DNA of 64,000 nucleotides from a virus: positions 29,601-93,600 of the IMG/VR virus record IMGVR_UViG_3300005253_000050; one strand, given 5' to 3'. Of the stretch, positions 5,462 through 36,106 are shown piece by piece. The translations under genes were made by a program, and so were the position numbers. The stretch's first letter is position 1, and each line of letters starts with the position of its first letter. Below the pieces are notes generated by a model, which had not been told where the DNA came from, ran no database searches, and was given only the letters and a program-made list of their open reading frames with translations.

Positions 5462-5757
5462 GTGCGCGGAGTTACTTCAGGGGCCACCCGATCATCCGTC
5501 TCTTCGGGCGCTGGGTCTATGAGGACAACGGTGCCTCTTTGCCGGCTGATGGCGGAGACACCCGCCCGTGTGCTCGGTGTGGCCAGCAGACGCCCCTCGG
5601 CGAGGGTGAGGTGGATCCATGCCTTGGGGCCCTCCCTGGAGTAGATAACGCTTGCTGTGGGCATGGCGTGCCCAGTGAGGCTTACATCCGCTTCACGAAC
5701 GGAGTGGTCGTCAGGGGCTTCACCGTGGAGTACGGGGAAGCGACGGAGCCAGAATGA
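5458..5757 (+). CDS. Small phage protein with CCGHG motif
   Basis: I chose the ATG at 5458 because it overlaps the preceding stop by four bases; this gives 99 residues. The sequence contains CARCGQQTP and a later CCGHGVPSEAYIRF stretch. A CCGHG motif followed by an aromatic strand is common in small uncharacterised phage proteins. No function is known. The gene ends at the ATGA that starts the methyltransferase, so the two are probably translated together. Confidence 0.72.
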   Translation: MSARSYFRGHPIIRLFGRWVYEDNGASLPADGGDTRPCARCGQQTPLGEGEVDPCLGALPGVDNACCGHGVPSEAYIRFTNGVVVRGFTVEYGEATEPE

Positions 5758-7316
5758 TTCTCCAGGGCGACTCCACCTCCCTCCCACTCGCAGACTCATC
5801 TGTGGACGCCGTCGTAACTGACCCGCCGTACGGTCTAGAGTTCATGGGAAAGGACTGGGACCGAGCGGTGCCACCCGTCGCCATCTGGAAAGAAGTCCTC
5901 CGCGTCATGAAGCCAGGCGCCTTCGCCGCCATCCTATGCTCGCCCCGCCAGGACCTACAGTCCCGGATGATAGTGAATTTCGAAGGCGCGGGCTTTTGTA
6001 CCGGGTTCACCTCAATCATGTGGACCTACGCAACAGGCTTTCCGAAGGCTGGAAATTTGTCCAAGCTCGCAGACCGACGTCGGAGAGACGATGTAAGGCC
6101 AGTCTGTAGATTCCTGCGTCGGCGAATCGAGGAACTCGGCGTGCACATCAAGACGATTGCGGCCGAGTTCGGGTTTCATCCCCGCATGGTTGAGCACTGG
6201 GCAGCAAGAGACACCGACAGCCAGCCAACGGTGCCCACCTGGGACCAGTGGCTGCAGCTCAAGGGACTACTCGGGTTCGGGGACAAGATGGACGACGAGG
6301 TCGCACGGCTGAACCACCGCAAGGGCACCCTCGGTGACGCGTGGCACGAGAGAGAGGTGATAGGTGAGCGTGCACCAACGGGCCCTTCTTGGTTCGCCGA
6401 GAATGACCAGCGGATCACCGCCCCATCCACCCCCGAAGCTAGGGAGCTCGAAGGCGCCTACGCCGGCTTTCAGCCCAAGCCCGCGTTTGAACCCGTGCTG
6501 ATCGTCATGAAGCCGCTTACAGAAAAGACCTATCTCGATCAAGCGCTGGCCAATGGCAAGGGTTGTTCTTGGCTCGACGACGCGCGGATCCCGACTGATA
6601 CACTCGCAAGCGGCGGCAAGCCGACGGCAACCAATAATCCATGCTTCGCGAGCAAGGGCAACAATCCATGCACGACACGCGCTGCGCCGCACGACGCCGG
6701 CCGCTTCCCCGCCAACGTCCTATGCTGCGACGACGCGCTCAACGATGGGAGGGTGAGCGGTGGTGGGCAGCGTATTGTCGGCGGAACCAATCGCACTGTT
6801 ACAAAACACATTGGACAAATGAGCGAACAGCCACGGACTGACGCGGTGGTGAATATCGGCGACGCCGGCTCATACTCCCGGTACTTCGACCTGGATCAGT
6901 GGTGGGTAGACAGGATCGCGCGGCTGCCCGAATCGGTGCAGCGCGTGTTCCCGTGGCTCATTGTGCCGAAGCCTAGCAAGAGGGAGAAAAACGCGGGGCT
7001 GGAAGAGCAGGGGAATCATCACGTCTCGGTCAAGCCCGTCCGACTCATGTCTTACCTGGTCACGTTGTTTTCACGAGTGGGCGAGGTCGTGCTCGACCCG
7101 TTCGTTGGGAGCGGGTCCACAGGGGTGGCTGCTGAAATCATGGCCCGGCGGTTTGTTGGCGTAGAGCTCGACCATGAGTACGCCGAGCTGGCTGAGAGGC
7201 GTGAGCGCTTCGCAGCGGCAAGGGACTGCGGGACCATGGCGTTCGAGCTGCAGCCATTGGCGACGGCGGGAGCGCCGGACCCAAACCAGGGCGACTTGTT
7301 CGGGGAGGATAGCTGA
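5754..7316 (+). CDS. Beta-class DNA methyltransferase (N6-adenine or N4-cytosine)
   Basis: This 520-residue enzyme should transfer a methyl group from S-adenosylmethionine to an exocyclic amino group in DNA. Catalytic motif IV (DPPYGLEF, residues 23-30) comes first, and the SAM-binding motif I (LDPFVGSGSTG, around 447-457, followed by FVGVELD) comes near the C-terminus. That order defines the beta class. Between them, around residues 95-180, is an inserted helical segment with an HTH-like stretch (IKTIAAEFGFHPRMVEHW), which could be part of target recognition. No restriction endonuclease is next to it, so it is probably an orphan enzyme that protects or marks phage DNA. The gene starts at an ATGA overlap. 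Confidence 0.93.
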   Translation: MILQGDSTSLPLADSSVDAVVTDPPYGLEFMGKDWDRAVPPVAIWKEVLRVMKPGAFAAILCSPRQDLQSRMIVNFEGAGFCTGFTSIMWTYATGFPKAGNLSKLADRRRRDDVRPVCRFLRRRIEELGVHIKTIAAEFGFHPRMVEHWAARDTDSQPTVPTWDQWLQLKGLLGFGDKMDDEVARLNHRKGTLGDAWHEREVIGERAPTGPSWFAENDQRITAPSTPEARELEGAYAGFQPKPAFEPVLIVMKPLTEKTYLDQALANGKGCSWLDDARIPTDTLASGGKPTATNNPCFASKGNNPCTTRAAPHDAGRFPANVLCCDDALNDGRVSGGGQRIVGGTNRTVTKHIGQMSEQPRTDAVVNIGDAGSYSRYFDLDQWWVDRIARLPESVQRVFPWLIVPKPSKREKNAGLEEQGNHHVSVKPVRLMSYLVTLFSRVGEVVLDPFVGSGSTGVAAEIMARRFVGVELDHEYAELAERRERFAAARDCGTMAFELQPLATAGAPDPNQGDLFGEDS

Positions 7317-9486: not shown

Positions 9487-9651
9487 ATGGGAGCCAAGAG
9501 AATGATGGGTGATTACACGGACTTGTACGCTGCTGGTGTTGCTGGTGGACCCGGGGGAGGGGGGTTAACGTTTCCGACCTTCTTCGTCTGGAAAGCATGC
9601 CTAGCAGGGTGCGGTATAGGTACACAATATATAAAAAGGTCGAGGCCTTGA
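9487..9651 (+). CDS. 54-residue glycine-rich peptide coupled to the recombinase
   Basis: This ORF is below the usual length cut-off. It has a GAGG ribosome binding site eight bases before its ATG. Its TGA overlaps the TTG that opens the recombinase by four bases (TTGA at 9648-9651), the same kind of coupling used elsewhere in the window. The peptide has a Gly-rich stretch (AGVAGGPGGGGL) followed by a hydrophobic segment (TFPTFFVWKACLAGCGIG) that could sit in a membrane. The function is unknown. It may simply be a leader peptide that controls recombinase translation. Confidence 0.5.
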   Translation: MGAKRMMGDYTDLYAAGVAGGPGGGGLTFPTFFVWKACLAGCGIGTQYIKRSRP

Positions 9652-10433
9652 AGGTTGTCGGATACATTAGGGTCTCGACAGAAGACCAAGCCAGAGAGGG
9701 AGTCTCACTCGAAAACCAGATTTCGAGGCTCCGCTCATACTGCAGCCTCCACGGCCATGAGCTCGTCGCCGTCTATGAGGACCGCGGCGCCTCTGGCAAG
9801 GATCTCTCCCGCTTGGGAGCCCAGGCCGCCTTTGCCGCTCTCGAGCGCGGCGACGCCGAGGGGCTGTTGGTCACTCACCTCGACCGCCTCTCCCGCAGCC
9901 TCCGCGACTTCCTTTATTTGGTCGACACCCATTTCGGCCCCGGGTGCAGGTTCTCGCTGCTCTGCATCGACAACCAGCTGGACACGAGCACGCCCACCGG
10001 CCGGATGATCGCCTCGGTGCTGGCGACCGTGGCCCAGTGGCAGCGCGAGGAGGACGTGGAGCGCGTCAGGCGGGCTATGGCTCACAAGAAGGCCAAGGGC
10101 GAGCGCGTGGGTTCCGTGCCCTGGGGGTACCGTCTCGCCGGCGACGGCCGCACCCTCACCCCGCACTCGGAGGAGCTGCGGGTCATGATGACGGCCCTCG
10201 ACATGCGTCGTCGTGGGATGACCCTCCGAGCCATCGCCGACAAGCTCAAGGAGCTCGGCCACCGCAACCGGCGCCGCTCGACCACGTGGAACGCGAAGAC
10301 CATCTCTCGCATCATCAAGGCCGCCGAGGCATACGAGGCATCCCCCGAGAGGCAGTGGGTGGACGAGGACGCCGCGCTGGCCGCGGAGGCCGCCGCCGGC
10401 CTCCGCCCCGACGACAAGGAGCAAAAACCGTGA
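9648..10433 (+). CDS. Serine recombinase (resolvase/invertase family)
   Basis: This 261-residue site-specific recombinase cuts and rejoins DNA through a serine-DNA intermediate. The catalytic domain begins at once (VVGYIRVSTEDQ, Ser10 nucleophile) and contains the expected arginine-rich parts (HLDRLSRSLRD; TGRMIASVLA). After it comes a short 'recombinase'-type segment (GERVGSVPWGYRL) and a C-terminal HTH-like helix region (RRRGMTLRAIADKLKE). At about 260 residues it is shorter than large serine integrases (over 400) and longer than simple resolvases. I chose the TTG start at 9648 because of the TTGA overlap and an upstream AGG-rich site. An ATG at 9597 would add 17 residues. It could act in integration, multimer resolution or inversion; no att site is proven. 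Confidence 0.9.
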   Translation: MKVVGYIRVSTEDQAREGVSLENQISRLRSYCSLHGHELVAVYEDRGASGKDLSRLGAQAAFAALERGDAEGLLVTHLDRLSRSLRDFLYLVDTHFGPGCRFSLLCIDNQLDTSTPTGRMIASVLATVAQWQREEDVERVRRAMAHKKAKGERVGSVPWGYRLAGDGRTLTPHSEELRVMMTALDMRRRGMTLRAIADKLKELGHRNRRRSTTWNAKTISRIIKAAEAYEASPERQWVDEDAALAAEAAAGLRPDDKEQKP

Positions 10434-13695: not shown

Positions 13696-14034
13696 ATGAG
13701 GTATGCCCTGAAGTTGACAGACTTCGCAGGCTATCCACCCGCCACCAATACCGGGTATGCCATACGAAGGACATTGCGAAGGCTAACCGGATCTCCTCTA
13801 TTGCACAGCCGGTCCAGGGCTTGGGTGGCCGACGTCACTGGTGGCACATGGGCATTTGTTAGGCCGGCAGTTGATTATTCGACGATCAACGTTGATGCCG
13901 GGCAAAACGCAGACAAAAACTACTGGCTAATTGATGGCCATGAATACGAGGTGTCAGAACCTACATCATGGAGTGGCGTCGATCGTTATCGGTGCAGGAT
14001 AGAAGACGGAAGGATGGTGAAGATAGATGCCTAA
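13696..14034 (+). CDS. Hypothetical protein, paralogue of 13122-13481
   Basis: The product has 112 residues. The first 45 are basic (TGYAIRRTLRRLTG), then SRAWVADV...AVDYS...NYWLIDGHEYEVSEP..WSGVDRYRC.IEDGRMVKI matches the protein at 13122 in order and spacing. The ATG follows the previous TAG with no gap. Its end overlaps the IbrA-like gene by eight bases, which links the pair to that operon. The function is unknown. Confidence 0.68.
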   Translation: MRYALKLTDFAGYPPATNTGYAIRRTLRRLTGSPLLHSRSRAWVADVTGGTWAFVRPAVDYSTINVDAGQNADKNYWLIDGHEYEVSEPTSWSGVDRYRCRIEDGRMVKIDA

Positions 14035-15232
14035 GTTAGGATTGGGAATAGACGTCCTAACGGCAGCTCGCGAGCGCACCGCCTGGACGTTCGATACCTT
14101 CCAACGAGTATGCGTGAGCTTCAGCGGCGGCAAGGACTCCTCTGTCATGCTGCACCTTGCGATGGATGAGGCGATCAGGCGAGGGCGTCGGGTGGGCGTG
14201 CTGTTCATCGACCTGGAAGGACAGTACCAACTCACCATCGAGCACATCCAGGAGTGCATGGGCCTTTACGCAGACCACATTGACCCCTACTGGATAGCGC
14301 TCCCGTTGTCCCTCAGAAACGCGGTAAGTGTCTATGAGCCCAAGTGGCAATGCTGGGATCCGGATCGCCGTATCGACTGGATTAGGGAGCCTCCCGCCAA
14401 TGCCGTGACGGATGCTGATAGGTGGCCCTGGTTTGAGCGTGAAATGGAGTTCGAGGAGTTCGTCCCGCTGTTCAACAAGGAGTACTCCCAGGACCAGCTT
14501 ACGGCGTGCCTGGTGGGCATCAGGACGGACGAAAGCCTGAACCGATACAGGACCATCGCCAGCACCAAAAAGCAGAAGTTCGAGGGGCGACAGTGGACCA
14601 CCTACACAGGGGGCACCACCTACAACGTCTACCCGATTTACGACTGGCGAACAGAAGACATCTGGACGTACAACAGCAAGTTCGGCAAGTGCTACAATCG
14701 GCTGTACGACCGGATGCATCAGGCGGGGCTTGGTATTCACCAACAACGTATCTGCCAACCGTACGGGGATGACCAGCGCAAGGGGCTCTGGTTGTTCCAT
14801 ATCATCGAGCCCAAGACGTGGTCGCGTATTGTAGCCAGGGTCAACGGCGCCAACGGCGGTGCCTTATACTCCAAGGACAGCGGCAACATCCAGGGCATGC
14901 GAAAAATTACCTTGCCGCCCGGGCACACGTGGGAATCGTTCGCGAAGATGCTTCTGGCGTCCATGCCCGACAAGACCCGCGACCACTTTGAGGACAAGAT
15001 TGCCGTGTTTCTCCGGTGGTGGCAGTCCCGTGGATACGAGGCAATCCCAGACGAAGCGGACCGTAAACTGGAGTCAAAAAAAGAGGTGCCATCGTGGCGA
15101 AGGATTTGCAAGGCTCTTTTGAGAAACGACTACTGGTGCAAGGGGCTGAGCTTTGGGCAGACGAAGGCCCCGGCATACGAGAACTACAAGCGCATCATGA
15201 AAAAGAGGCGGGCAGCATGGGGGCTGATATGA
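14027..15232 (+). CDS. IbrA-like PAPS-reductase-family protein (DUF3440 type)
   Basis: This 401-residue protein belongs to the adenine-nucleotide alpha-hydrolase/PAPS reductase superfamily. The pyrophosphate-binding loop SFSGGKDSS lies at residues 31-39, followed by the expected strand and acidic end (VGVLFIDLEGQY). Later stretches (LTACLVGIRTDESLNR, YPIYDWRTEDIWTY, QRICQPYGDDQRKGL) match the DUF3440 family that includes IbrA. IbrA works with IbrB to alter gene expression in some E. coli strains; the chemistry is not settled. The superfamily also includes DndC of DNA phosphorothioation. The partner IbrB-like gene follows directly, overlapping by 16 bases. Confidence 0.85.
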   Translation: MPKLGLGIDVLTAARERTAWTFDTFQRVCVSFSGGKDSSVMLHLAMDEAIRRGRRVGVLFIDLEGQYQLTIEHIQECMGLYADHIDPYWIALPLSLRNAVSVYEPKWQCWDPDRRIDWIREPPANAVTDADRWPWFEREMEFEEFVPLFNKEYSQDQLTACLVGIRTDESLNRYRTIASTKKQKFEGRQWTTYTGGTTYNVYPIYDWRTEDIWTYNSKFGKCYNRLYDRMHQAGLGIHQQRICQPYGDDQRKGLWLFHIIEPKTWSRIVARVNGANGGALYSKDSGNIQGMRKITLPPGHTWESFAKMLLASMPDKTRDHFEDKIAVFLRWWQSRGYEAIPDEADRKLESKKEVPSWRRICKALLRNDYWCKGLSFGQTKAPAYENYKRIMKKRRAAWGLI

Positions 15233-17475: not shown

Positions 17476-17786
17476 TGTCCAGCCGCTCACTGGAAGAAAC
17501 GGTCGAGCTGATCAATGCCTGCTACGAGCAACACCGTGAAAATGAGGCGCGCTGGGAGAAAGAGGACCGCATGGACGAAGCCGAACTGCATTATTATCGG
17601 GCAGTTCAATGCATGAACTCGGCCATCGGATCCCTCCGTAGTTCAGCCAAGTGGTGGAGCGATATTGACCAGCTGCTGATGGCTAAGTTCTGTGAAGAAA
17701 AAGCCGTCTCGCTGGAAAACGGCAAGCCGCCGATGCGAGTTGAGTTTGTGCTGGCGGCCGAACTTCTCAAGGAGCAGACCCCATGA
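17475..17786 (+). CDS. Helical hypothetical protein
   Basis: The product has 103 residues. It is almost entirely polar helices with many Glu and Lys (EETVELINACYEQHREN, ARWEKEDRMDEAELHYY), consistent with a small helical bundle or coiled coil. It overlaps the DHH gene by four bases, so the two are probably co-translated. No family is recognised. Confidence 0.65.
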   Translation: MSSRSLEETVELINACYEQHRENEARWEKEDRMDEAELHYYRAVQCMNSAIGSLRSSAKWWSDIDQLLMAKFCEEKAVSLENGKPPMRVEFVLAAELLKEQTP

Positions 17787-18688
17787 AAGACACCCGGAGC
17801 AGCAGAGAACCTCTGATCATCCACCACGCGGGGTGCGCGGACGGAATATGCGGCGCGTTGGTTTTGTGGCTCGGGCTGGGCCGTCGCGGGGCACTCCTGC
17901 CGGTTCAGTACGGGGACGCGCCGCCGGACATCAAGACCATCGAGGGCCGCGAGGTGTGGATCGTGGACTTCAGTTATCCACGGGGAATCCTCGAGGACAT
18001 GAACGCCGAGGCGTCGAACATCATGGTGCTTGATCACCACAAAACCGCGGCCGAGAACTGCGAAGGGCTGGACTTCTGCACGTTCGATTCGACCAGGAGC
18101 GGCGCGAAGATCGCCTATGATCTAATGCTTGGGTTGGGGCGTTTGCGTGGAGAGCCTCCCGACCTGGTGGACGTCCTCGGTGTCTTGGTGGCCTACGTGC
18201 AGGATCGGGACCTCTGGACCTGGGAGCTGAAAAACAGCAAGGAGATCTCGGCCTGGCTGGCGAGTTGGCCGCGGACGCTTGAGAGCTGGTACGAGCTGCT
18301 GTGCCGGGTGACCCACCTTGGTTTCGGGCGGATGGTGGGCGAAGGCCAGGCGCTCCTGCGGAACAACGACAACCTGATCAGCTCCATGGCGAAGCAGGCC
18401 GAGGCGGTGGACTGGATCCCGGAGTCCTGCCCGCCGCTGCGGGTGCTGCTGGTCAACAGCCCGGTGCTCCACTCCGAGCTCGCCGCGAAGCTCCTGGCCG
18501 CCCGCGAGTGCGACTTCGTGTGCGTCTGGCGGCGGACCAAGGACAAGTTCGTCTACAACCTGCGCTCGACCACGGTGGACGTGAGCCAGATCGCGCGGGC
18601 ACTCGGTGGGGGCGGGCACGCCAAGGCGGCCGGGTTCTCGAGCCCGTCCCGGCCCGCGCGGTTTTTCGTCACGGCGGAGAAGAGCTAG
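17783..18688 (+). CDS. DHH-family phosphoesterase
   Basis: This 301-residue enzyme should hydrolyse phosphodiester or phosphoanhydride bonds with two metal ions. Motifs seen: HHAGCADGICGA (residues 14-25), IVDFSYP (60-66), VLDHHKTA (82-89, the name-giving DHH), and GGGGHAKAAGF (about 275-285), the DHHA1 substrate-binding motif. Relatives include NrnA-type nano-RNases and cyclic-dinucleotide hydrolases; which substrate applies here cannot be read from the sequence. A second DHH module is built into the giant protein at 30448. Confidence 0.88.
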   Translation: MKDTRSSREPLIIHHAGCADGICGALVLWLGLGRRGALLPVQYGDAPPDIKTIEGREVWIVDFSYPRGILEDMNAEASNIMVLDHHKTAAENCEGLDFCTFDSTRSGAKIAYDLMLGLGRLRGEPPDLVDVLGVLVAYVQDRDLWTWELKNSKEISAWLASWPRTLESWYELLCRVTHLGFGRMVGEGQALLRNNDNLISSMAKQAEAVDWIPESCPPLRVLLVNSPVLHSELAAKLLAARECDFVCVWRRTKDKFVYNLRSTTVDVSQIARALGGGGHAKAAGFSSPSRPARFFVTAEKS

Positions 18689-26934: not shown

Positions 26935-28737
26935 ATGGCCGCTCAGACGCCCGCACCGCCCGAATCAACAGAACTCACCGTGACGGTGATCAAGGCCGCC
27001 CCGAAGATCGATGTTGACTTCGGTCGGGCCCGGGAGGACGCCGACGAGGTGCAATGGGGACTGAGTTTCCCGCTCCCGCGTCCCTTAGATGTAGATAAAC
27101 TCCTGCTGCTCTTCTCGGTTTCGGATACGCTCCAGCAATGCGTCGACGCAATGGTGTCAAATATTGACGCCAGGGGATGGGCTCCCGAGCCTGTCCTGGA
27201 CCTCGATGCAGACGATGCCGCGGAGCAGGTAGCGACGGCGATGTATCTGGAGCGCCGGTCTCGATCCCCGGCCGCCTCAATGCCGACAGCAGAGGAGGTG
27301 GAGGAGACGCTGAAGGAGTGGCGGCGCGAGGCCCGTCTGGAGAAGGCGCTGCTCAAGCTGCGCGTCAAGGCCCTGTGCTACGAGAGCTCTTTCTCGGAGC
27401 TCCGCCAGCAGAAGCGTCGAGACCGAGAGGTGATCGGGTGGGGGGCCTGGGAAATAATCCGCAGCGACAGCGGCGATATCGTCCGCGCGAAGCACGTCCC
27501 GTCGCGCACACTCTGGCTGACTACGATCGATGACGAGGTCACCGCGACGCCGGCCTGGCTCCCGACGAGCGATGTCAGCCGCGAGGCCGTTATCGTCGAC
27601 CGGCGCTTCCGGCGGGTGATCCAGATCGACAGCGCTGGCGCCTATACCTATTTCAAGTGGTTCGGTGATCCGCGGATCATCTCGGCCAAAAGCGGGAAGC
27701 CCTACGACTCTGAGAAGGACCTCCTCGAGGCTGATGGAGAAGACCACGAGGCCGGCGAGGTCAAGGGTGAGCCCCCGAAGCCGGCGACGGAGATCTTGTG
27801 GTTCGGGACGTACTACCCGGAGGGCGCCTACCCGCAGCCACGGTGGCACGGGCTGATCCCGAACATCGTCGGCAGCCGCGAGGCGTCAGAGGACAACGCC
27901 CGGTACCTGTCGAACTCCGCCATCCCCCAGGGGCTGCTCCTGGTCTCGGACGGGCGGGTCGGCCCCTCGTCGAAGGGCAGCCTGTCGACGTTCTTCGAAT
28001 CGAACGAGGGGAATGCGCGGCAGAAGATCGCCGTGGTGGAGGCCACCACCCCGCGCGAAAACGCGATCCTTCCTGGGTCCGGCCGCGTGCAGCTCGAGTG
28101 GGTGTCGCTGCGGCAGGCCCAGCAGGACGACCTCACCTTCAGCCAGTACATCATGATGACCTCCGACCAGGTGGGCGAGGCCTTCCGCCTGCCGTCGCTG
28201 CTGCGCGGCCGGGTGAAGGACCTGAATAAAGCCAACGCCGTCGCCGTGCTGGAGTTCGCCGAAGACCAGGTGTTCGCCCCGGAGCGCCAGTCCTTCGACG
28301 ACCTCATCAATGACACCCTGGTCGCCAACTGGGGGATCCGGTTCTGGCGCTTCAAGTCCCTCGGCTCTCGCAAGCGGGATCCGGAGTCCATCGCCAAAAT
28401 CGCCGAGGCGTTCCTCCGCGCCGGCGTGGTCACCCCCGCCGAGCTGCGGGATCTTGCCGAGCAGCTGCTGGGTGTCGACCTCCCGAGCTCGGCCAGCGAC
28501 TGGCAGCACATCACTCAGCTGATGGTCACCGCCGGCCACATCCCCCCCTCGGCCAAGCCGCCGGAAACGGTGAGCCAGCCAGTCGGGCCGCCGGCGGATC
28601 CGGATGAATTGCAGGAGCCGCCGACCGGGTCCGCCGAGGACATCGCGAAACGGATCCTCAAGATGGAGGCCTTCCTTGCCACTGCCCGCCAGGCGGAGGC
28701 GATGGCCACGATGCCGGAGCCCGATGGAACTTCTTGA
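26935..28737 (+). CDS. Portal protein
   Basis: This 600-residue protein should form the twelve-subunit ring through which DNA enters and leaves the head and to which terminase and connector bind. Evidence: length; an N-terminal FGLSFP-like opening (WGLSFPLPRPLD); the alternating helix/strand core with YLSNSAIPQGLLLVSDG (around residues 322-338), which is typical of the central portal domain; the VGEAFRLPSLLRG stretch; and position just before the MuF-like gene. A GGAGG site precedes the ATG. The C-terminal 50 residues are proline-rich and may be flexible. Confidence 0.88.
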   Translation: MAAQTPAPPESTELTVTVIKAAPKIDVDFGRAREDADEVQWGLSFPLPRPLDVDKLLLLFSVSDTLQQCVDAMVSNIDARGWAPEPVLDLDADDAAEQVATAMYLERRSRSPAASMPTAEEVEETLKEWRREARLEKALLKLRVKALCYESSFSELRQQKRRDREVIGWGAWEIIRSDSGDIVRAKHVPSRTLWLTTIDDEVTATPAWLPTSDVSREAVIVDRRFRRVIQIDSAGAYTYFKWFGDPRIISAKSGKPYDSEKDLLEADGEDHEAGEVKGEPPKPATEILWFGTYYPEGAYPQPRWHGLIPNIVGSREASEDNARYLSNSAIPQGLLLVSDGRVGPSSKGSLSTFFESNEGNARQKIAVVEATTPRENAILPGSGRVQLEWVSLRQAQQDDLTFSQYIMMTSDQVGEAFRLPSLLRGRVKDLNKANAVAVLEFAEDQVFAPERQSFDDLINDTLVANWGIRFWRFKSLGSRKRDPESIAKIAEAFLRAGVVTPAELRDLAEQLLGVDLPSSASDWQHITQLMVTAGHIPPSAKPPETVSQPVGPPADPDELQEPPTGSAEDIAKRILKMEAFLATARQAEAMATMPEPDGTS

Positions 28738-30067
28738 GCTCCCCAGCCGCGAGGTGCTGGTGCAGCGAGGGCCAAGCGTTGGCTTCGTCGGCCCGTCCAT
28801 GGCCCGCGTCCGCATCCCCAAGGCATCCCAGGCCCAGGGTTACGTGCTGCTCCACCGCGGCGCTCACGGCGCCTGGCAGACGTTCCGCCTGACGTCGCGG
28901 AAGGAGACAGCCGCCAGGAAGCGGGCCGCCCGGGTGGCGCGGCTCATTGGCCGAAAGATTATTCTCGGTGAGCTCGTCCAGGTGGCCGGGGAGACGCAGG
29001 TGATCCGATCCATCGCCACCTACGAAACGATGTCCAAGGCCGAGCTATTCGCCCGAGCTGCAGCTGCGGCCGGCGAGGTGGCGGACATCTACAAGGCCAA
29101 GGATCCGGACCCGTACAACCCCCGGCAGTTCGACAAGATGACGGACGCCCTCGCGCGCGACCTTAACAGGGTGGCCAAGCCGGCGTTTGTAGCCACGGTC
29201 GAGAAGGCCGTGACGTCGTCCAAGATCGACTGGGCCACGGCCACCGAGAAGCAGATGGAGGCCTTCAGCAAAAAGCTCGCCGCAACTCTTGGCGTCTCTG
29301 CCGCTGCGGTCTGGAAATCGATCCGCCCCACGGTGGTTGACTCCTCCGTGACGATGGCCACCGAATCCCGCGCAGCCTTCGTGAAATCGAACAATCTCAC
29401 GGTGGACAGGGTCATCTCGCTCCAGGACAAGGCGGCCGTGACCAGGTCGGCGATGACGAACGCGCACTACGTGCGAGAGTTCGCGACCGGGCAGATGAGC
29501 CCGAGCCTGAGTTCGCAGGCCCGGGTGATCGTCCAGTCTGGAATTAGCAAAGGCGAGAGTTCCCGGATGATCGGGAAGGAGCTCCACCGGGTTCTCGGCC
29601 GGGCGGCCGGCGGCCAGACCGAGGCCTACTTCCGAATGGCTGCGAGCGCGATCAACGCCAGGTCCCGGGAGTTCTCGTCGTTGCGATCCATGCAGGACGC
29701 GGGGATCGATAAATACGAATGGAGCTCGGTGCTCGATGAGATGACCACGGAGACCTGCCGCTTCCTCGACGGCCAGGTATTCTCTGTTCAGGGCGCACTC
29801 GACCGATACAAAGCCGCCGACGCTCTAGAAGACCCCACAGACATCAAATACGAGATGCCGTGGTTCTATGACAAGCCGATCCGCGGCGGCGAGCACGACG
29901 GCAAGATGGGAATCTTTATGAACCAGCGCGGGGGGATGCAGCGTGTCGCTGTGGTTGAAAAAGGTGGCTTCGGGAAACGGGACGCGATCGGCACCTACTC
30001 CAACACCAAAAGCTCAAAGGCGTTGGAGGGAATGGGGATGCCTGCATGTCCAGGGCACAGTTTGTGA
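28724..30067 (+). CDS. Phage Mu F-like minor head protein
   Basis: The product has 447 residues from the ATG at 28724, overlapping the portal end by 14 bases. The first 300 residues are helical and alanine-rich. The MuF core is visible near residues 335-360 as DEMTTETCRFLDGQVF, the D-x-x-T-x-x-C-x-x-L-D-G signature, followed by an F-rich end and PACPGHS. MuF proteins sit inside the head near the portal, and are often fused to or packaged with other proteins. Here the next two genes include a protease-bearing multi-enzyme protein. Confidence 0.88.
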   Translation: MELLELPSREVLVQRGPSVGFVGPSMARVRIPKASQAQGYVLLHRGAHGAWQTFRLTSRKETAARKRAARVARLIGRKIILGELVQVAGETQVIRSIATYETMSKAELFARAAAAAGEVADIYKAKDPDPYNPRQFDKMTDALARDLNRVAKPAFVATVEKAVTSSKIDWATATEKQMEAFSKKLAATLGVSAAAVWKSIRPTVVDSSVTMATESRAAFVKSNNLTVDRVISLQDKAAVTRSAMTNAHYVREFATGQMSPSLSSQARVIVQSGISKGESSRMIGKELHRVLGRAAGGQTEAYFRMAASAINARSREFSSLRSMQDAGIDKYEWSSVLDEMTTETCRFLDGQVFSVQGALDRYKAADALEDPTDIKYEMPWFYDKPIRGGEHDGKMGIFMNQRGGMQRVAVVEKGGFGKRDAIGTYSNTKSSKALEGMGMPACPGHSL

Positions 30068-30112: not shown

Positions 30113-30451
30113 ATGAGCAACATAATCCAGCCCGGACTCTCGCACCTGATCAGCACCATGGATCTCGCCCGCATCGAGGACGCTGTCCACAAGGCGGTGA
30201 TGCGCTCGGCCGAACTGCGTGGACAAAAGATGTACACCGAGGGCAAGATCTCGCACAGCGAGTACGACCGCCGCGCGAAGTACTGCATCGAGCTCGCGCT
30301 GCGCTGGCGCAAGGAGCGTCGGTTCGCGCTCGAGCAAATCGGCGACGCGCTCAAGACCGCCCTGATCAGCTGGATCGACGGCGATGAATACGAGCCCCGC
30401 GACGGAATGTGGGCCGACCCCGACCAGAACAACCCGGCAGGTACATTATGA
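30113..30451 (+). CDS. Small helical protein between MuF and protease genes
   Basis: The product has 112 residues, with GAGGAAGACG before the ATG. It is highly charged and helical (SHSEYDRRAKYCIELALRW). It overlaps the next gene by four bases. Its place in the head-morphogenesis block suggests a small head or assembly protein; no motif shows it. Confidence 0.65.
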   Translation: MSNIIQPGLSHLISTMDLARIEDAVHKAVMRSAELRGQKMYTEGKISHSEYDRRAKYCIELALRWRKERRFALEQIGDALKTALISWIDGDEYEPRDGMWADPDQNNPAGTL

Positions 30452-33400
30452 GAATCCTGAAGTCCCTCGACCCCCACTACCTGGTGCATCGGCTCGCCTC
30501 CGATCAGATCGTTGGCGTGCTCGCTGACCGCGACCTCGGCGCCCTGGCCGATGACGACATGATGCTGGCAGACGGTGAGGTGGACCCCGACTGTGAGCCT
30601 CTCGCCCATGGCGTGGTGCGGCTCCGGAAGGGCGTGCGGTTTGCCTCTGGCGAGGCGGCCGTCGCCAAGCTCGGCGAGAAGCTCGACCCGTTCATGGCCC
30701 GGACTTTCGGTGCGTCCGCTGACCCGGTGTGGTTCCACCCGCTCAAGTCCGTGGACGCCTGGGAAGAGGCCGCCGTGGTGAAGGGGCTGGAGGTGCCAGT
30801 TCGAATCCTGAAGGCCGCCGAGGTGATTCCGGATGAGGGCGCGCTGAGCGAGCTGAGTTCTGCTGGCCTTGGCGAGGTGGCGAAGCTACTGGACTCGAAT
30901 CCAGAGAGTGAGGGCGCCGAGGAGTTGGCGGTGATCGTGAAGGCCGAGTACGATCGCCGCGGACTCGAGCCCGATGAGTCGCTGCTGATCTTCAAGGGCC
31001 TCTGGGGTTACCCCGCTGGGAAAGCCAGACTGTCGAAGCGATTGGTTGAGATGATGCCAACGCACAAGGTCTACGTTGAACCATTTGTCGGGAGTGGCGC
31101 GGTGCTATTCGCGAAAGAGAAAGTAGGCACCGAGGTTGTGAACGACACCGACCCAGCTGTGGCCGAGGCCTGGCAGGTTCTTTCTGAGTTGACCGCGCAA
31201 GATCTAAAGCGCCTCTGTGGGATGAACTGGACCGGCGATCGTGACACCTTCACGAGAATGAAAAAAGAGACCGGCGGTGACGACGTAGTCAAGCTACATC
31301 GGTTTTTCTATCTCTCTAAATTTGCTTATGGTCGGTGGCGAGGGACTGGATTTTCTCCTGAAATGCAAGGACATACGGTCACAATGGCCCGAATGCTGGA
31401 AAAGAACGCTCCCCGTGCCCAAGGCGTGGTCGCTCTTCATGGTGACTACGAGGCCGTGTGTCGTAAATACGACGGCCCAGACACGTTACACTTCCTCGAT
31501 CCTCCGTACGCTGGATATGCCTCCGCTGTGGGAGAAAAGAACTTCGACGAGGAGCGTTTTTTTAAGATGCTCAAGGAACTCAAAGGGAAGTGGATCGTCA
31601 CATACGGGGTCAAGGGCAAGCTACCCAAGATGCTCCGTGATTCCGGATTTACTGTAAAGAAGGTCACCACCCATCGTTCGATCCGGACGAGCGTCGCCTC
31701 CACGAATCCGTCTGCGGTGCTTGATCAACTGATCGCATACAACTTCGATCCGAATGCCAAGGCCGAAGACCCAGCGCTTGCCCCGACAGAAGAGCCAGCC
31801 GAGGCGCCTGTCGAAGCGGAAAAAAAAAACCTAAATTCCCCGGACGCTGAGAAGCAGGAGGGCTCGCCGGTCCTCTGTTTCTATCACGGCGATCTGGACG
31901 GCGTGGCGTCCGCCGCGGTTGTTCTTCAGGCCCACCCGGCCGCCGAGCTGGCGAGCATCAACTACGGGCAGGAGTTCCCATGGGACACCATCAAGGACCG
32001 CGAGACGGTCTACATGGTGGACTTCGGGATGCAGCCGTTCGAGGAGATGGTCAAGCTCAAGGCCGAACTCGACGAGATGGGGACCAGGTTCGTGTGGATC
32101 GACCACCACATCACCGCGCTCGAGGCCGCAGAGAAGGCGGGCTTCGAGGTCGACGGTCTCCGCGAGATCGGCCAGGCCGGCTGCGAGCTGACATGGAAGT
32201 TCATCCACCCCGACGACCCCATGCCGGAGGTGGTTCGCCTCGCTGGTCGATTCGACGTCTGGGACCACGAGGACCCGAACGTCCTGCCGGTGCACTACGC
32301 GATGGAGGCAATCCCCGAAGCCAACGACCCGAGCAGCGAGTGGTGGGCCGAGTGGCTCAAGAAGGGCGAGGGGGACTTCGCTGAGCTCGTCGCCCAGGGC
32401 AAGGCGATCCAGGGCTGGCTCGAAGAGTTCAGCGCCGGCCGGATGAGGTTCTCGTCCTTCGATGTGGACTTCGCTGGGCTCAAATGCGTGGCGGCCTGCA
32501 CCTCTCTCCCTGGGTCCATTCAATTCGAGTCGGTTGGCAAGGAGCACGACGCCGCGATCTCGTTCTGCTTTTCGCCGAGAAACCAGTGGAACGTCTCGAT
32601 GTATTCCATCAAGGAAGGCGTCGACGTCGGGAAGGTCTGCATGGACAACGGCGGCGGTGGTCACGCTGGCGCCGGCGGGTTCCAGTGCACGGAGCTGCCG
32701 TTCGACCTCCCGGCCTCCACCAAGAAGGCTTACGACCTCCGCGAGCCCCTCGCCGCCTACGCTCACGACGCCTGGTCTCGGTGGATGGATCATCTCTTCG
32801 AGCAGGCATCTCCCGACGGGACGATGGCGCCCGAAGACGTGGAGCGATGGAAGCGCCTGATCACGACCAAGTACGCCGACCTCACCGAGGATGAAAAGGA
32901 GTCCGATCGCCTCGAGGCGGACCGGTTGCTGGCGGTGATGAGCGGGCGGGACGACGAGGTCGAGAAGGCCGCAGTGGCACCGCTTGCCCCGGCCCCGGCG
33001 CTCGCCGTTTTCAAGCCGACCGAGGAGAACTCCTTCGACGACGTGAAGGAGCTGCTCGAGAAGTTCGGGACGGACGAATCACTCGGCGCCGGTGTCGGGG
33101 TCGGGCCGAAGTGGAACGGCCAGCTCGCCATCGTTCACAGCGTACCTGACGGCGTGTCGATCCACTACGAAGGCAACCCCACCGAGCAGGCTCCGAACCT
33201 CAAGGCCATCGCCGCGTCGGCCGCCAAATTCGACGACGGGTATGCTCTCATCGGCGAGGTGGTGGAGGCTGACATCGGCGCGGTGTTCATGGCGCGCGAC
33301 GTGCTCCACTGGGCGGGTGTCGACCACTCGGCCGAGCCGTGGTCTGCGCGACAGAAGATCCTAGACCAGGCGGTCCCGCAGGCGACCGCCGCCATCGCCC

Positions 33401-34305
33401 CCGCCCCCGCTCGGCTGGTTCATTCAGCCGACACTTTGAAGGCCGCGATCACCTGGGCGGCCGAGGTTCCGGGATCCGTCGGGGCGGTGATCACCCCCGC
33501 TGATTCAGTCGCGACGCCAGGTGGATCCGCACCTCAGATTGCCGAGGTTCGGACCCCTCGGATCGTCAACGCGATGGTGGTCGGAGCGGATTCGAATCCG
33601 GATGGATCCAACGTCTATCAGTGCGCCGTCGGGCCGCTTTCGGATTCGGAGTCAGATCGTCTTAAAGAGGTGGTCGAGGTCGGTGGGCGGAACTATGCAA
33701 TCGTCGGATCTGTGTGTACACCTTCTGTGAATGCCTCTGTGGGCGATACACTAAGAGTGGAAGTGGGCGAAATATTGGTGGTTGACAGCGAAGATTCGGC
33801 CGCGATAGGATGGGACTCATCAAAGGTACTCGAGCGGGTGCACGTAAAACCCGCGACGGTATCCGAAGTTCGAGCACTGGCGCGACCACATGAGATCCAG
33901 AAACTCTGCAAAATCCTCAAGCGCGATTCGGAGCGGCATTACATCCTCAGTGTTGTGCTCGAGCCGAACGATGGCAAGGGCGAAGCACCACTGGATCCCG
34001 ACGCCCACAACGATATTTACTCCGACGACGAGATCTGGGATGCCTGCGTGTATTGGTACGAGCAGGGCGCCGGCCTTGGCGTCATGCATGAGCGCGGAGC
34101 GACCACCTCAGAGCTGCTCCCGGTCCACAATATCATCGCCCCGGTCGACATGGAGATCGGCGGCGAGTTTGTGCGGGCTGGTTCGTGGCTCATTGGATCT
34201 CTCGTCCTATCTGCCGACCTCTGGCAGCGGATTGAATCTGGGGAGCTCAACGCGTGGAGCGTTGATGGACGAGCGCTTCGGCGCCCCGAGGCAATAGCAG
34301 CTTGA
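30448..34305 (+). CDS. Giant multi-enzyme 'polyvalent' protein: Dam-type MTase + DHH + ligase-like + XkdF-like protease
   Basis: The product has 1285 residues. After an N-terminal region of unknown fold, residues about 185-430 form a Dam (D12)-class adenine methyltransferase (EPFVGSGAV at 211-219; DPPY at 351-354). Residues about 470-770 are a DHH phosphoesterase (DLDG at 482-485; IDHHITA at 551-557; GGGGHAGAGGF at 735-745). Residues about 865-990 resemble an ATP-dependent ligase nucleotidyltransferase (K888 in PKWNGQ; GEVV with E937), followed by an OB-like region (about 1028-1140). The last 135 residues match XkdF-like serine proteases (YILSVVLEPN, His1214, Ser1271 in AWSVDGRA). The gene sits where a prohead protease is expected. 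All parts are by-eye calls; the MTase and DHH are surest. Confidence 0.85.
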   Translation: MRILKSLDPHYLVHRLASDQIVGVLADRDLGALADDDMMLADGEVDPDCEPLAHGVVRLRKGVRFASGEAAVAKLGEKLDPFMARTFGASADPVWFHPLKSVDAWEEAAVVKGLEVPVRILKAAEVIPDEGALSELSSAGLGEVAKLLDSNPESEGAEELAVIVKAEYDRRGLEPDESLLIFKGLWGYPAGKARLSKRLVEMMPTHKVYVEPFVGSGAVLFAKEKVGTEVVNDTDPAVAEAWQVLSELTAQDLKRLCGMNWTGDRDTFTRMKKETGGDDVVKLHRFFYLSKFAYGRWRGTGFSPEMQGHTVTMARMLEKNAPRAQGVVALHGDYEAVCRKYDGPDTLHFLDPPYAGYASAVGEKNFDEERFFKMLKELKGKWIVTYGVKGKLPKMLRDSGFTVKKVTTHRSIRTSVASTNPSAVLDQLIAYNFDPNAKAEDPALAPTEEPAEAPVEAEKKNLNSPDAEKQEGSPVLCFYHGDLDGVASAAVVLQAHPAAELASINYGQEFPWDTIKDRETVYMVDFGMQPFEEMVKLKAELDEMGTRFVWIDHHITALEAAEKAGFEVDGLREIGQAGCELTWKFIHPDDPMPEVVRLAGRFDVWDHEDPNVLPVHYAMEAIPEANDPSSEWWAEWLKKGEGDFAELVAQGKAIQGWLEEFSAGRMRFSSFDVDFAGLKCVAACTSLPGSIQFESVGKEHDAAISFCFSPRNQWNVSMYSIKEGVDVGKVCMDNGGGGHAGAGGFQCTELPFDLPASTKKAYDLREPLAAYAHDAWSRWMDHLFEQASPDGTMAPEDVERWKRLITTKYADLTEDEKESDRLEADRLLAVMSGRDDEVEKAAVAPLAPAPALAVFKPTEENSFDDVKELLEKFGTDESLGAGVGVGPKWNGQLAIVHSVPDGVSIHYEGNPTEQAPNLKAIAASAAKFDDGYALIGEVVEADIGAVFMARDVLHWAGVDHSAEPWSARQKILDQAVPQATAAIAPAPARLVHSADTLKAAITWAAEVPGSVGAVITPADSVATPGGSAPQIAEVRTPRIVNAMVVGADSNPDGSNVYQCAVGPLSDSESDRLKEVVEVGGRNYAIVGSVCTPSVNASVGDTLRVEVGEILVVDSEDSAAIGWDSSKVLERVHVKPATVSEVRALARPHEIQKLCKILKRDSERHYILSVVLEPNDGKGEAPLDPDAHNDIYSDDEIWDACVYWYEQGAGLGVMHERGATTSELLPVHNIIAPVDMEIGGEFVRAGSWLIGSLVLSADLWQRIESGELNAWSVDGRALRRPEAIAA

Positions 34306-35126
34306 CTTCGTTCAGTAACTTTTTTCTCAGCGCCGCACAGAAAGCCAAAGACCCGGATGAGAAAGACAAGATCTTCAGGCTGCGACGGATTGCCATTGAT
34401 GAAGTCCACCTGGTCAACGCTGGCGCCAACAAACAAACTTTTTTGATCCGCAAGGACGAGGGAGCTACCATGAAAACCGCAGACATGATTCCCGGTGCCA
34501 CGGGCATCAAAAACTCCGCCGGCGTGGTCGTCACCAAGGCCGACGCCATGGCAGGTGCCGACGAGGACCTGCAGAAGCTGATCGAGAAGATGGCGAAGGA
34601 GGGCAGCGGTTCTCCCGAGGGACTGGTCGACAGCCTCAAAAACATTTCCAAGGTGCTCGCGAGCGTGGCCCAGAAGGCCGAGGAGCCCCCGATGGAAGAG
34701 GACCCCCCCGCCGAGGAGCCGCCGCCCGCCGAGGAAGATGACACCGAGAAGGGTGCCGCCGCCCCGGCTCCCGCCGCGAAGGCCGAAGGCGAAGGCGTCG
34801 AGGCGGCTGTCGCGAAGGCCGCGCCCGCCGACCCGTTCAAGACGATCGACGACCAGCTCGAGCGAATCCAGAAGGCCGAGCGCGAGATCAACAGGGGCAC
34901 CATCGCCACCAAGGCGGTGGAGGTGCTTCAGAAGATCGCCGGGGGCCTGGGCATCGAAGAGAAGAGGGTGATCCAGGAGAAGCTGGTGAACATCGCCAAG
35001 TCGCTGGGTGATGCGCCCGCGCCGGCGAAAATCCCCGACGGGAATTCCAAGCCCGGTGAACACCCCGTCAAGCCCCCCCAAGATGGCGGCTGGGACTTGT
35101 ACCAGGACATCAACGAGAAAAAGTAA
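34302..35126 (+). CDS. Scaffold-like protein carrying the detached XkdF end motif
   Basis: The product has 274 residues from a TTG at 34302 whose last two bases start the upstream TGA (TTGA). Residues about 27-52 (LRRIAIDEVHLVNAGANKQ) are the EVxLVxxGAN motif that normally ends XkdF/prohead proteases, but here it is in a separate frame from the protease. After residue 100 the protein is a Pro/Glu/Ala-rich stretch and then a charged coiled coil, as in scaffolding proteins that are removed from the prohead. The major capsid gene follows. It may be made alone or partly as a frameshift product. Confidence 0.75.
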   Translation: MTSFSNFFLSAAQKAKDPDEKDKIFRLRRIAIDEVHLVNAGANKQTFLIRKDEGATMKTADMIPGATGIKNSAGVVVTKADAMAGADEDLQKLIEKMAKEGSGSPEGLVDSLKNISKVLASVAQKAEEPPMEEDPPAEEPPPAEEDDTEKGAAAPAPAAKAEGEGVEAAVAKAAPADPFKTIDDQLERIQKAEREINRGTIATKAVEVLQKIAGGLGIEEKRVIQEKLVNIAKSLGDAPAPAKIPDGNSKPGEHPVKPPQDGGWDLYQDINEKK

Positions 35127-35161: not shown

Positions 35162-36106
35162 ATGACCCCTAACCAGGACCAACTCGTGAGGCTCAAGAAG
35201 GCAGCTTGGGGCTACACTGATCTGTCGTCCGGCGGCGGCCTGATGAATCAGGCTTACGCCAAGGAATTCGTGGAGCTCACCGTCAAGGAATCGGTGGCGA
35301 TGAAGGACATGAACGTCTTTCCGACGCCCGCTGCCACCTACAAGGTGCCGAACCTCGCCTTCAGCGGCACGGTGCTTTTCCCCGGTGTGATCGGCCAGGC
35401 CCTCCCGGATGCCTACCAAAGCCAGCCCGACTCCGACAAGGTCGAGTACGTGGCGAAGCTGTACAAGGCCAAGATCGGTATCCCCGACGAAATCCTCGAG
35501 GACAACGTCGAGGAGGCCAAGCTCAAGTCCCGCGTCCAGGGCCTTCTGGCCAAGAAGATCCGCTCGGACTGGGAGTGGATCATCTTCGAGGGCGACACCG
35601 CCAGCGCCGTCCCGACCCTGGCCGTCCAGGACGGGCTGTTCAAACTCGCCACGTCCAACACCAAGGACGCCGGCGGCGCGCAGCTGTCTCTCACCCAGCT
35701 CAAGGCGGCCTGGAAGCTCATGCCGAGCGAGTTCCGGGGGCAGAAGAAGGACATGAGGGTTTGGTGTGGCGCCAATCCTGTCGAGGACTACGGCGACTCC
35801 ATGATGGATCGCCAGACCCAGGTGGGCGACAACGCGATCAAGGGCGACTGGGACGGCCCCTGGTTCAAAAAAATGCCCATCGTCGACGTCCCGAAGATCG
35901 CCGAGGACCTCACCCCGGGTACGTACAGCCACGCGCTGTGCTGCCACCCGAAGAACGCCACGGTCGGCATCTGGAAGAACATCGAGATGGAGCCGGAGCG
36001 CGACGCCGACGCCGGCGTCTGGAACCTCATCGTTCGTCTCCGGTTCGGCATCGCCTGGGCCGAAGAGAACGGCGTGGTCGAGATCACCAACCTGCTCGCC
36101 ACGTAG
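35162..36106 (+). CDS. Major capsid protein
   Basis: The product has 314 residues, with AAGGAGCGAG before the ATG. The call rests on position after protease and scaffold, size, and the pattern of an HK97-type capsid protein. There is a helical N-arm, a beta-rich E-loop region (TYKVPNLAFSGTVLFPG), long helix (EEAKLKSRVQGLLAKKI), KIGIPDEILEDN, and a C-terminal strand that ends GIAWAEENGVVEI, a common ending of such proteins. No separate delta domain is expected because the scaffold is its own gene. A strong hairpin follows its stop. Confidence 0.82.
   Translation: MTPNQDQLVRLKKAAWGYTDLSSGGGLMNQAYAKEFVELTVKESVAMKDMNVFPTPAATYKVPNLAFSGTVLFPGVIGQALPDAYQSQPDSDKVEYVAKLYKAKIGIPDEILEDNVEEAKLKSRVQGLLAKKIRSDWEWIIFEGDTASAVPTLAVQDGLFKLATSNTKDAGGAQLSLTQLKAAWKLMPSEFRGQKKDMRVWCGANPVEDYGDSMMDRQTQVGDNAIKGDWDGPWFKKMPIVDVPKIAEDLTPGTYSHALCCHPKNATVGIWKNIEMEPERDADAGVWNLIVRLRFGIAWAEENGVVEITNLLAT

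Follow-up and report, generated by a model that had tools for sequence, protein, structure and literature searches.

This analysis focused on a single large gene in a 64,000-nucleotide stretch of viral DNA, referred to below as the window, which spans positions 29,601-93,600 of IMG/VR record IMGVR_UViG_3300005253_000050 (parent virus contig G000, 93,600 bases). The gene (30448..34305, plus strand; 1285 codons and a stop) specifies a polyprotein in which an N-domain, a methyltransferase (MTase), a DHH/DHHA1 phosphoesterase, a RyR domain, a ligase-like nucleotidyltransferase (NTase) with an OB-like region, and an XkdF prohead protease follow one another in a single chain. The fusion is real and conserved. 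It can be read, at what we take to be an even chance, as a head-assembly polyprotein in which XkdF stands C-terminal to a string of counter-defence domains that would be loaded into the head and act in the next host.

A conserved fusion at the prohead protease position

The frame begins with ATG at 30448 and is open to 34305 without interruption. It is considered a genuine and conserved fusion because two full-length homologues retain the same domain order, one of them in a collinear phage. The first, L003, comes from a 5.5 kb IMG/VR contig (3300009488_001899) and is 1354 aa long and 68% identical to the polyprotein; the second, L004 (1279 aa, 70% identical), lies on a 91.9 kb contig, JAAEQC010000157.1, of the metagenome-assembled genome 'Gpa_8'. 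The latter contig is itself a phage, circularly permuted relative to G000, and shares with it a portal (77% identity), major capsid protein (82%), sheath (85%) and terminase-like gene (78%). Scans of viral contigs and genome contigs found no further full-length homologues. The ratio of non-synonymous to synonymous polymorphism (pN/pS) was 0.15-0.63 per domain, indicating that all domains are under purifying selection, and 0.63-1.07 in two linkers. The contigs are metagenomic, but an assembly artefact joining separate genes is refuted in practice, and its probability is close to nil, since three independent assemblies show an identical order at 68-70% identity, with overlapping neighbour genes.

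The C-terminal domain (residues 1145-1285, 33880..34302) is an XkdF / Peptidase_S78_2 prohead protease, matching PF14550 with an E-value of 1.2e-16 (61.3 bits against a cut-off of 24). D1185, H1214 and S1271 are invariant in an alignment of ten XkdF proteases, the pN/pS is 0.15-0.21, and this is the only prohead protease candidate seen in the phage. In none of the three genes does a strong ribosome-binding site precede an internal start close to residue 1145, from which the protease could be made on its own. The surrounding gene order is portal, MuF, small gene, polyprotein, scaffold-like gene and major capsid. XkdF proteases with the same domain, the same invariant Asp/His/Ser and the same slot occur in Pakpunavirus, RcZahn, RHph_Y1_11, Lactococcus phages, psiM100 and Dulem virus 37. 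However, where the slot of other phages (portal-MuF-protease-scaffold-major capsid) holds either a bare XkdF protein of 123-214 aa (Pakpunavirus, 156 aa; RcZahn; RHph_Y1_11; Sonali) or a protease-scaffold protein of 349-411 aa (Lactococcus 56701, Dulem virus 37, psiM100), in both cases lacking N-terminal enzymes, it is enlarged here by approximately 1145 N-terminal residues. The label 'DNA methyltransferase' carried by the proteases of Pakpunavirus (L005), RHph_Y1_11 (L024) and Lactococcus (L025) was rejected as evidence of similar fusions: a Pfam scan of the RHph and Lactococcus proteins detected no MTase domain, the Pakpunavirus protein is just 156 aa long, and the label was apparently carried over from phrog_1530.

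The sequence-only reading on which this analysis followed had proposed both the single uninterrupted frame of 1285 residues and a fusion of several enzymes at the prohead-protease position. The frame has been borne out, relatives with the matching domain order exist in L003 and L004, and the fusion is supported by these two homologues, by the domain matches and by the portal-to-capsid gene order. That reading did not include the RyR domain or the poly-A slippage cassette described below.

Domains of the polyprotein

Residues 1-180 (30448..30987) form an N-domain that is 73-74% conserved (pN/pS 0.26-0.32) and gave no significant match in Pfam, PHROG or PDB; it is possibly a head-targeting or cargo domain. 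The adjoining D12/Dam-type N6-adenine DNA methyltransferase (residues 181-437, 30988..31758) matches PF02086 (MethyltransfD12; 1.1e-15, 58.5 bits against a cut-off of 22), phrog_13242 (4.8e-104) and PDB 7m6b (5.7e-16), and its motifs EPFVGSG (211-217) and DPPY (351-354) are invariant across the three homologues. As the Dam subfamily model TIGR00571 scored 48.6 bits, below its cut-off of 114.85, the methylase is assigned to the D12 class rather than to Dam proper. Elsewhere in the window (5754-7316, plus strand), a 520-aa protein has a PF01555 DNA methylase signature towards the C-terminal end and another methyltransferase motif at the N-terminus, which suggests an insertion in mid-protein.

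The DHH/DHHA1 phosphoesterase (residues 473-755, 31864..32712) was recognized by phrog_4771 (1.2e-34) and by PF01368, just under the cut-off (1.1e-5, 26.2 bits against 28.1). An eleven-sequence alignment that included eight phage DHH proteins showed motifs I-IV and the DHHA1 GGGH all to be present (H480, D482, D484, D525, D552-H553-H554, D603, and GGGGH at 735-739). The pN/pS values of the N-domain, MTase and DHH domains together span 0.26-0.38. By profile, the closest solved structures are the phosphodiesterases NrnA, TmPDE and Rv2837c, while a cyclic di-AMP phosphodiesterase ranks lower. The nearest phage relatives (L015-L021, phrog_4771) are proteins of about 290 aa, 36-45% identical and with all DHH/DHHA1 motifs, but in the loci seen they are encoded by standalone genes without fusion to a head protein. 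In jumbo phages, DHH phosphodiesterases have been proposed as counters to SMODS and CRISPR signals (PMC7824862). A DHH match in MT835680 was set aside, its neighbourhood looking bacterial by eye. The window also carries a second, standalone DHH/DHHA1 gene (17783-18688, plus strand), 27% identical to the polyprotein domain and 69% conserved in the L004 phage.

The next module (residues 760-835, 32725..32952) is a RyR domain (PF02026) resembling RyDEP, gp78 of mycobacteriophage DyoEdafos, a glycosidase with which the phage degrades Thoeris signals (PMC13232231, preprint 2026). PF02026 E-values were 3.4e-5 in L004, 2.5e-4 in L003 and 0.022 in the window. The standalone, 80-aa gp044 of Microcystis phage LMM01 matches the L004 domain with 45% identity (E 3e-13) and aligns with the same RyR residues as the polyprotein. 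The ligand and catalytic residues of RyDEP are H75, W78, H100 and D117 (PMC13232231), and, going by these residue numbers, the spacings of H75/W78 and H100/D117 appear to be reproduced here by H773-W776 (3) and R803-D820 (17). The domain (pN/pS 0.42-0.51) is of the PF02026 type, as in RyDEP, and may share with it the catalytic His/Asp dyad and the adenine-stacking Trp at equal spacings. The two differ in that RyDEP is a standalone early-to-mid protein of an NARP1 operon, whereas the domain here lies within a head polyprotein and has Arg in place of H100.

Between the RyR domain and the protease lies a putative ATP-dependent ligase/capping-type NTase (residues 863-1045) with an OB-like region (1046-1140; together 33034..33867). 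PF01068 matched in register in all three homologues (5.6e-4, 2.6e-3 and 0.058) and several NCBIfam ligase models matched L003 and L004. Foldseek searches with a low-confidence model placed DNA ligases, capping enzymes and RNA ligases first among the PDB matches (best E 1.5e-3); in BFVD they recovered phage DNA ligases, the best of those with a name having an E-value of 2.4e-4 and a probability of 1.00. A HMMER alignment to the Sulfolobus solfataricus ligase, illustrative only at E 0.41, brought motifs I, III and IIIa into line. Each of these matches is weak alone, but all agree on a ligase superfamily fold with the motif order I, III, IIIa. Key ligase residues are partly lost, so that nick sealing is unlikely: motif I (KxDGxR) reads KWNGQL, KWSGEV and KWNGRL, its Asp and Arg being counted as lost in all three; the motif IV Glu is found in L003 only, and motif V (KxK) reads EVR or EVK (motifs IV-V having been placed by eye). 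The NTase is the fastest-evolving domain (pN/pS 0.44-0.63; OB 0.42-0.44). Almost no variation is seen in the segment that joins OB to the protease, SKVLERVHVKPATV.E.RALARPHEIQKLCKI, as would suit a structural coupling to the protease. For the NTase and OB unit, a role as adaptor or in nucleotide binding is more likely than one in sealing.

Of the enzymes named in the sequence-only reading, the PFVGSG...DPPY methyltransferase, the DHH phosphoesterase and the XkdF-like protease with its His and Ser have all held up, the first and last by Pfam matches above cut-off with active-site residues intact or invariant, the second by its phrog_4771 match and complete motif set. The ligase-like assignment, based on a KxNG motif, was right at the level of fold (PF01068, NCBIfam, Foldseek), but sealing-competent residues are partly lost, and the role of a sealing enzyme is made unlikely by the absence of the motif I Asp/Arg in all three proteins and of the motif IV Glu in two.

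A poly-A tract in the methyltransferase-DHH linker

The linker between the MTase and DHH domains (residues 438-472, 31759..31863) is variable (29-46% identity, pN/pS 0.70-1.07), with about 75 extra residues in L003. It contains a run of ten A residues (31820..31829), a candidate site of programmed slippage or frameshifting, and the same linker has A10 in L003 (2527-2536) and A11 in L004 (9370-9380). In the window, the run is followed by a +1 stop (TAA) after 2 nt and a -1 stop (TGA) after 18 nt. The +1 stop immediately after the run is TAA, TAG and TGA in the window, L003 and L004, respectively, and a -1 stop follows within 8-18 nt in all three. Of all positions in these genes, 0.6% have both off-frame stops this close, although the three genes are related and the cube of this figure is therefore no proper probability. 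The A10 tract is the sole A or T run of at least 9 in the 93.6-kb genome, and the A11 tract likewise in the L004 contig of 91.9 kb; the expected number of A-runs of at least 10 is 0.017 per strand. The different stop codons and run phases argue for independent maintenance of the cassette.

The layout is that of Thermus thermophilus dnaX, in which RNA polymerase slips on a run of 9 bases and about 50% of the product is full-length (PMC5009743). Both have an A run of at least 9, a long frame-0 product and near stops in the other two frames, but dnaX is another gene, and slippage at the cassette described here is a prediction. Ribosomal frameshifting is an alternative to transcriptional slippage: P0001 also holds A_AAA_AAC, and in each of the three genes the sequence beyond the slip site folds into a hairpin. 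By either mechanism, a product of roughly 460-466 aa comprising the N-domain and MTase is predicted beside the 1285-aa form. The position of the cassette directly after the MTase suggests that separation could be achieved by recoding along with, or in place of, proteolysis.

The tract may instead be nothing but a Lys-rich linker or a homopolymer error, with only the full-length protein made. Such linkers are common and homopolymers are prone to sequencing error, but Lys is preferentially encoded by AAG in these genes (53 AAG against 16 AAA in the polyprotein gene), the run lengths of 10, 10 and 11 differ while frame 0 is kept each time, and each gene has stops in both other frames no more than 18 nt away, the stop codon just past the run being a different one in each. 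We regard this explanation as rather unlikely.

Function, origin and genomic setting

From the gene, its domain order, the conserved residues, the overlaps with its neighbours and the slip cassette, we infer the following course of expression, packaging, cleavage, injection and action. The polyprotein would be translated late, coupled to the small gene upstream and the scaffold-like gene downstream. Slippage at A10 would end part of the output after the MTase, and the remainder would be full length. The shared N-domain, an interaction with protease or scaffold, or both, would carry the two forms into the procapsid, where XkdF may cleave the variable linkers during maturation. The freed MTase, DHH phosphodiesterase and RyR domain would then enter the next host along with the DNA, the MTase methylating the incoming DNA and the other two destroying or sequestering immune signals made of nucleotides: linear or cyclic oligonucleotides in the case of the DHH enzyme, and the 2'/3'-cyclic ADP-ribose (cADPR) of Thoeris in that of the RyR domain. 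The fullest version, in which recoding and proteolysis are combined, slippage sets the ratio of free methylase to protease-tethered cargo, and the two are carried in the capsid so that restriction, signalling by cyclic or linear oligonucleotides and the cADPR signal of Thoeris are disabled as infection starts and before any phage gene is expressed, is put forward only tentatively. A counter-defence role of the polyvalent type had been proposed for this protein, and it gains support from the intact motifs of MTase, DHH and XkdF; the presence of RyR strengthens the nucleotide-signalling half of that idea.

Several observations weigh against the proposal of delivered counter-defence enzymes. The RyR domains scored 15.4-24.4 bits, all below the PF02026 cut-off of 27.4, as did a standalone RyR-like protein of L008 (18.5 bits). 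The phosphate-contacting H100 of RyDEP appears to have been replaced by Arg (R803), as it is in the aligned phage sequences too. RyDEP alone was catalytic, none of eight tested homologues hydrolysing cADPR while six of the eight bound it (PMC13232231), and two homologues taken further acted as sponges (PMC13232231); since only RyDEP itself was a catalyst there and most of the homologues bound, it is fair to say that the domain here would destroy or sequester cADPR signals. We would expect a catalyst to serve the phage better than a sponge where few copies are present, as with a packaged protein. The ligase-like domain scored below the Pfam cut-off, and AlphaFold models of the N-domain plus MTase and of the RyR-ligase-protease part, built from three sequences, reached a pLDDT of only 38-39, so that beyond the hint of a ligase, structure adds little. 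The slip-site hairpin is weakly supported (z -1.7, -0.8 and -2.0, with one compensatory pair). Lastly, conservation of the OB-protease segment means that cleavage at that point is not indicated.

One competing explanation is that the enzymes are not delivered but do their work late, within the cell that makes them: the MTase would mark progeny DNA near packaging, DHH and RyR would damp late nucleotide signalling, and the fusion would only fix timing, dose or location at the procapsid. It accords with the late-gene position, and the separate DHH and MTase genes noted above mean that these activities make sense as ordinary expressed proteins. However, a covalent tie to the head protease would be costly for mere expression, and two of the activities are already available standalone in the same phage; we judge late action to have perhaps one chance in four. 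It is improbable that the domains are retired enzymes serving as internal core or scaffold mass, with the protease alone catalytic. The ligase-like domain, degenerate and fastest-evolving, would fit such a role, but the active-site residues of MTase, DHH and RyR (H773/W776/D820) are intact and invariant in all three proteins, and mere bulk would not keep them.

Comparison with known proteins suggests a mosaic history. A single profile, phrog_13242 (450 positions, 'unknown function'), matches both the MTase (positions 24-283) and the XkdF protease (308-430), and so represents a pre-existing MTase-XkdF fusion; it spans the two domains as here, but has no room for the N-domain, DHH, RyR or ligase-like domains. 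The DHH-RyR-ligase block appears to have been inserted between the halves of this older fusion. G+C content at third codon positions (0.55 in OB, 0.62 in MTase, 0.70 in protease, and 0.81-0.88 in N-domain, DHH, RyR and NTase) is low in both of those halves, which fits mosaic assembly. An extra linker module of L003 (L003:2249-2575, DSSFLYIEPGG...RNAIARIPQS), which stays below the cut-off of every Pfam family, shares 70% identity along 69 aa with Tsac_2860 of Thermoanaerobacterium phage THSA-485A, an S78-type prohead protease with a scaffold-like region. This match shows modules passing between the prohead-protease proteins of unrelated phages, although Tsac_2860 itself was rejected as a homologue of the fusion, as it shares only that module.

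The closest described class is that of the polyvalent proteins (Iyer et al. 2017, PMC5512222), which are predicted to be injected and include MuF and portal fusions (PMC5512222). As in that class, disparate enzymatic domains stand in one chain in a virion-gene context, among head genes, and the published domain network has N6A methylase and MuF as hubs. The carrier here is the XkdF prohead protease, whereas neither XkdF nor DHH nor RyR turned up in a search of the main text of PMC5512222. The claim that no described protein has this exact combination stands for the full set of domains, for which none was found, but not for the MTase-XkdF pair, already known from phrog_13242; the protein would be a polyvalent-type protein on a new carrier, XkdF.

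The neighbouring genes, all on the plus strand, are those of a head-gene cluster. The portal protein (26935..28737; phrog_12, 1.2e-19) is followed by a MuF-like minor head protein (28724..30067; PF04233, 2.6e-6), its start set from the L004 homologue, and a 112-aa gene (30113..30451) that is 85% identical in L004 and whose stop overlaps the polyprotein start. Downstream are the 274-aa scaffold-like gene (34302..35126), which in each of the three homologues begins within the stop of the polyprotein gene, and the major capsid protein (35162..36106; phrog_1623, 5.2e-57). Both overlaps are of 4 bases and kept in the window, L003 and L004, the upstream one as ATGA throughout, the downstream one as ATGA, but TTGA in the window. 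Their retention in all three suggests translational coupling of the polyprotein with both neighbours.

Some further features were recorded. The MuF homologue of L004 (L004:5197-7494) has 766 aa, compared with 447-487 in the window, owing to a C-terminal extension of about 280 aa that has no clear family match. Halovirus HGTV-1 has an oversized 'prohead protease' of 888 aa in the same slot (L032:8822-11488), with only a weak DUF2213 match. The window also carries a serine recombinase/resolvase gene (9597-10433, plus strand), which hints at a temperate life style, and a gene for a 401-aa protein with a PAPS-reductase-like domain and DUF3440 (14027-15232, plus strand; PP-loop, IbrA/DndC-like). 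In the two phage genomes, a G11 run at G000:C1:9359, outside the window, and a G10 run at G001:C157:33602 are possibly phase-variable or slippage tracts.

If the proposal is true, the capsid protease would carry into the virion a methylase, a nucleotide phosphodiesterase and either an enzyme or a sponge for Thoeris signals. The phage would then have counter-immunity that is pre-emptive, loaded by a defined route, and equipped with a recoding switch to set the balance of cargo and protease. The slippage cassette is the most testable new element, and oversized prohead-protease genes with long A-runs at their linkers offer a rule by which similar systems may be sought.

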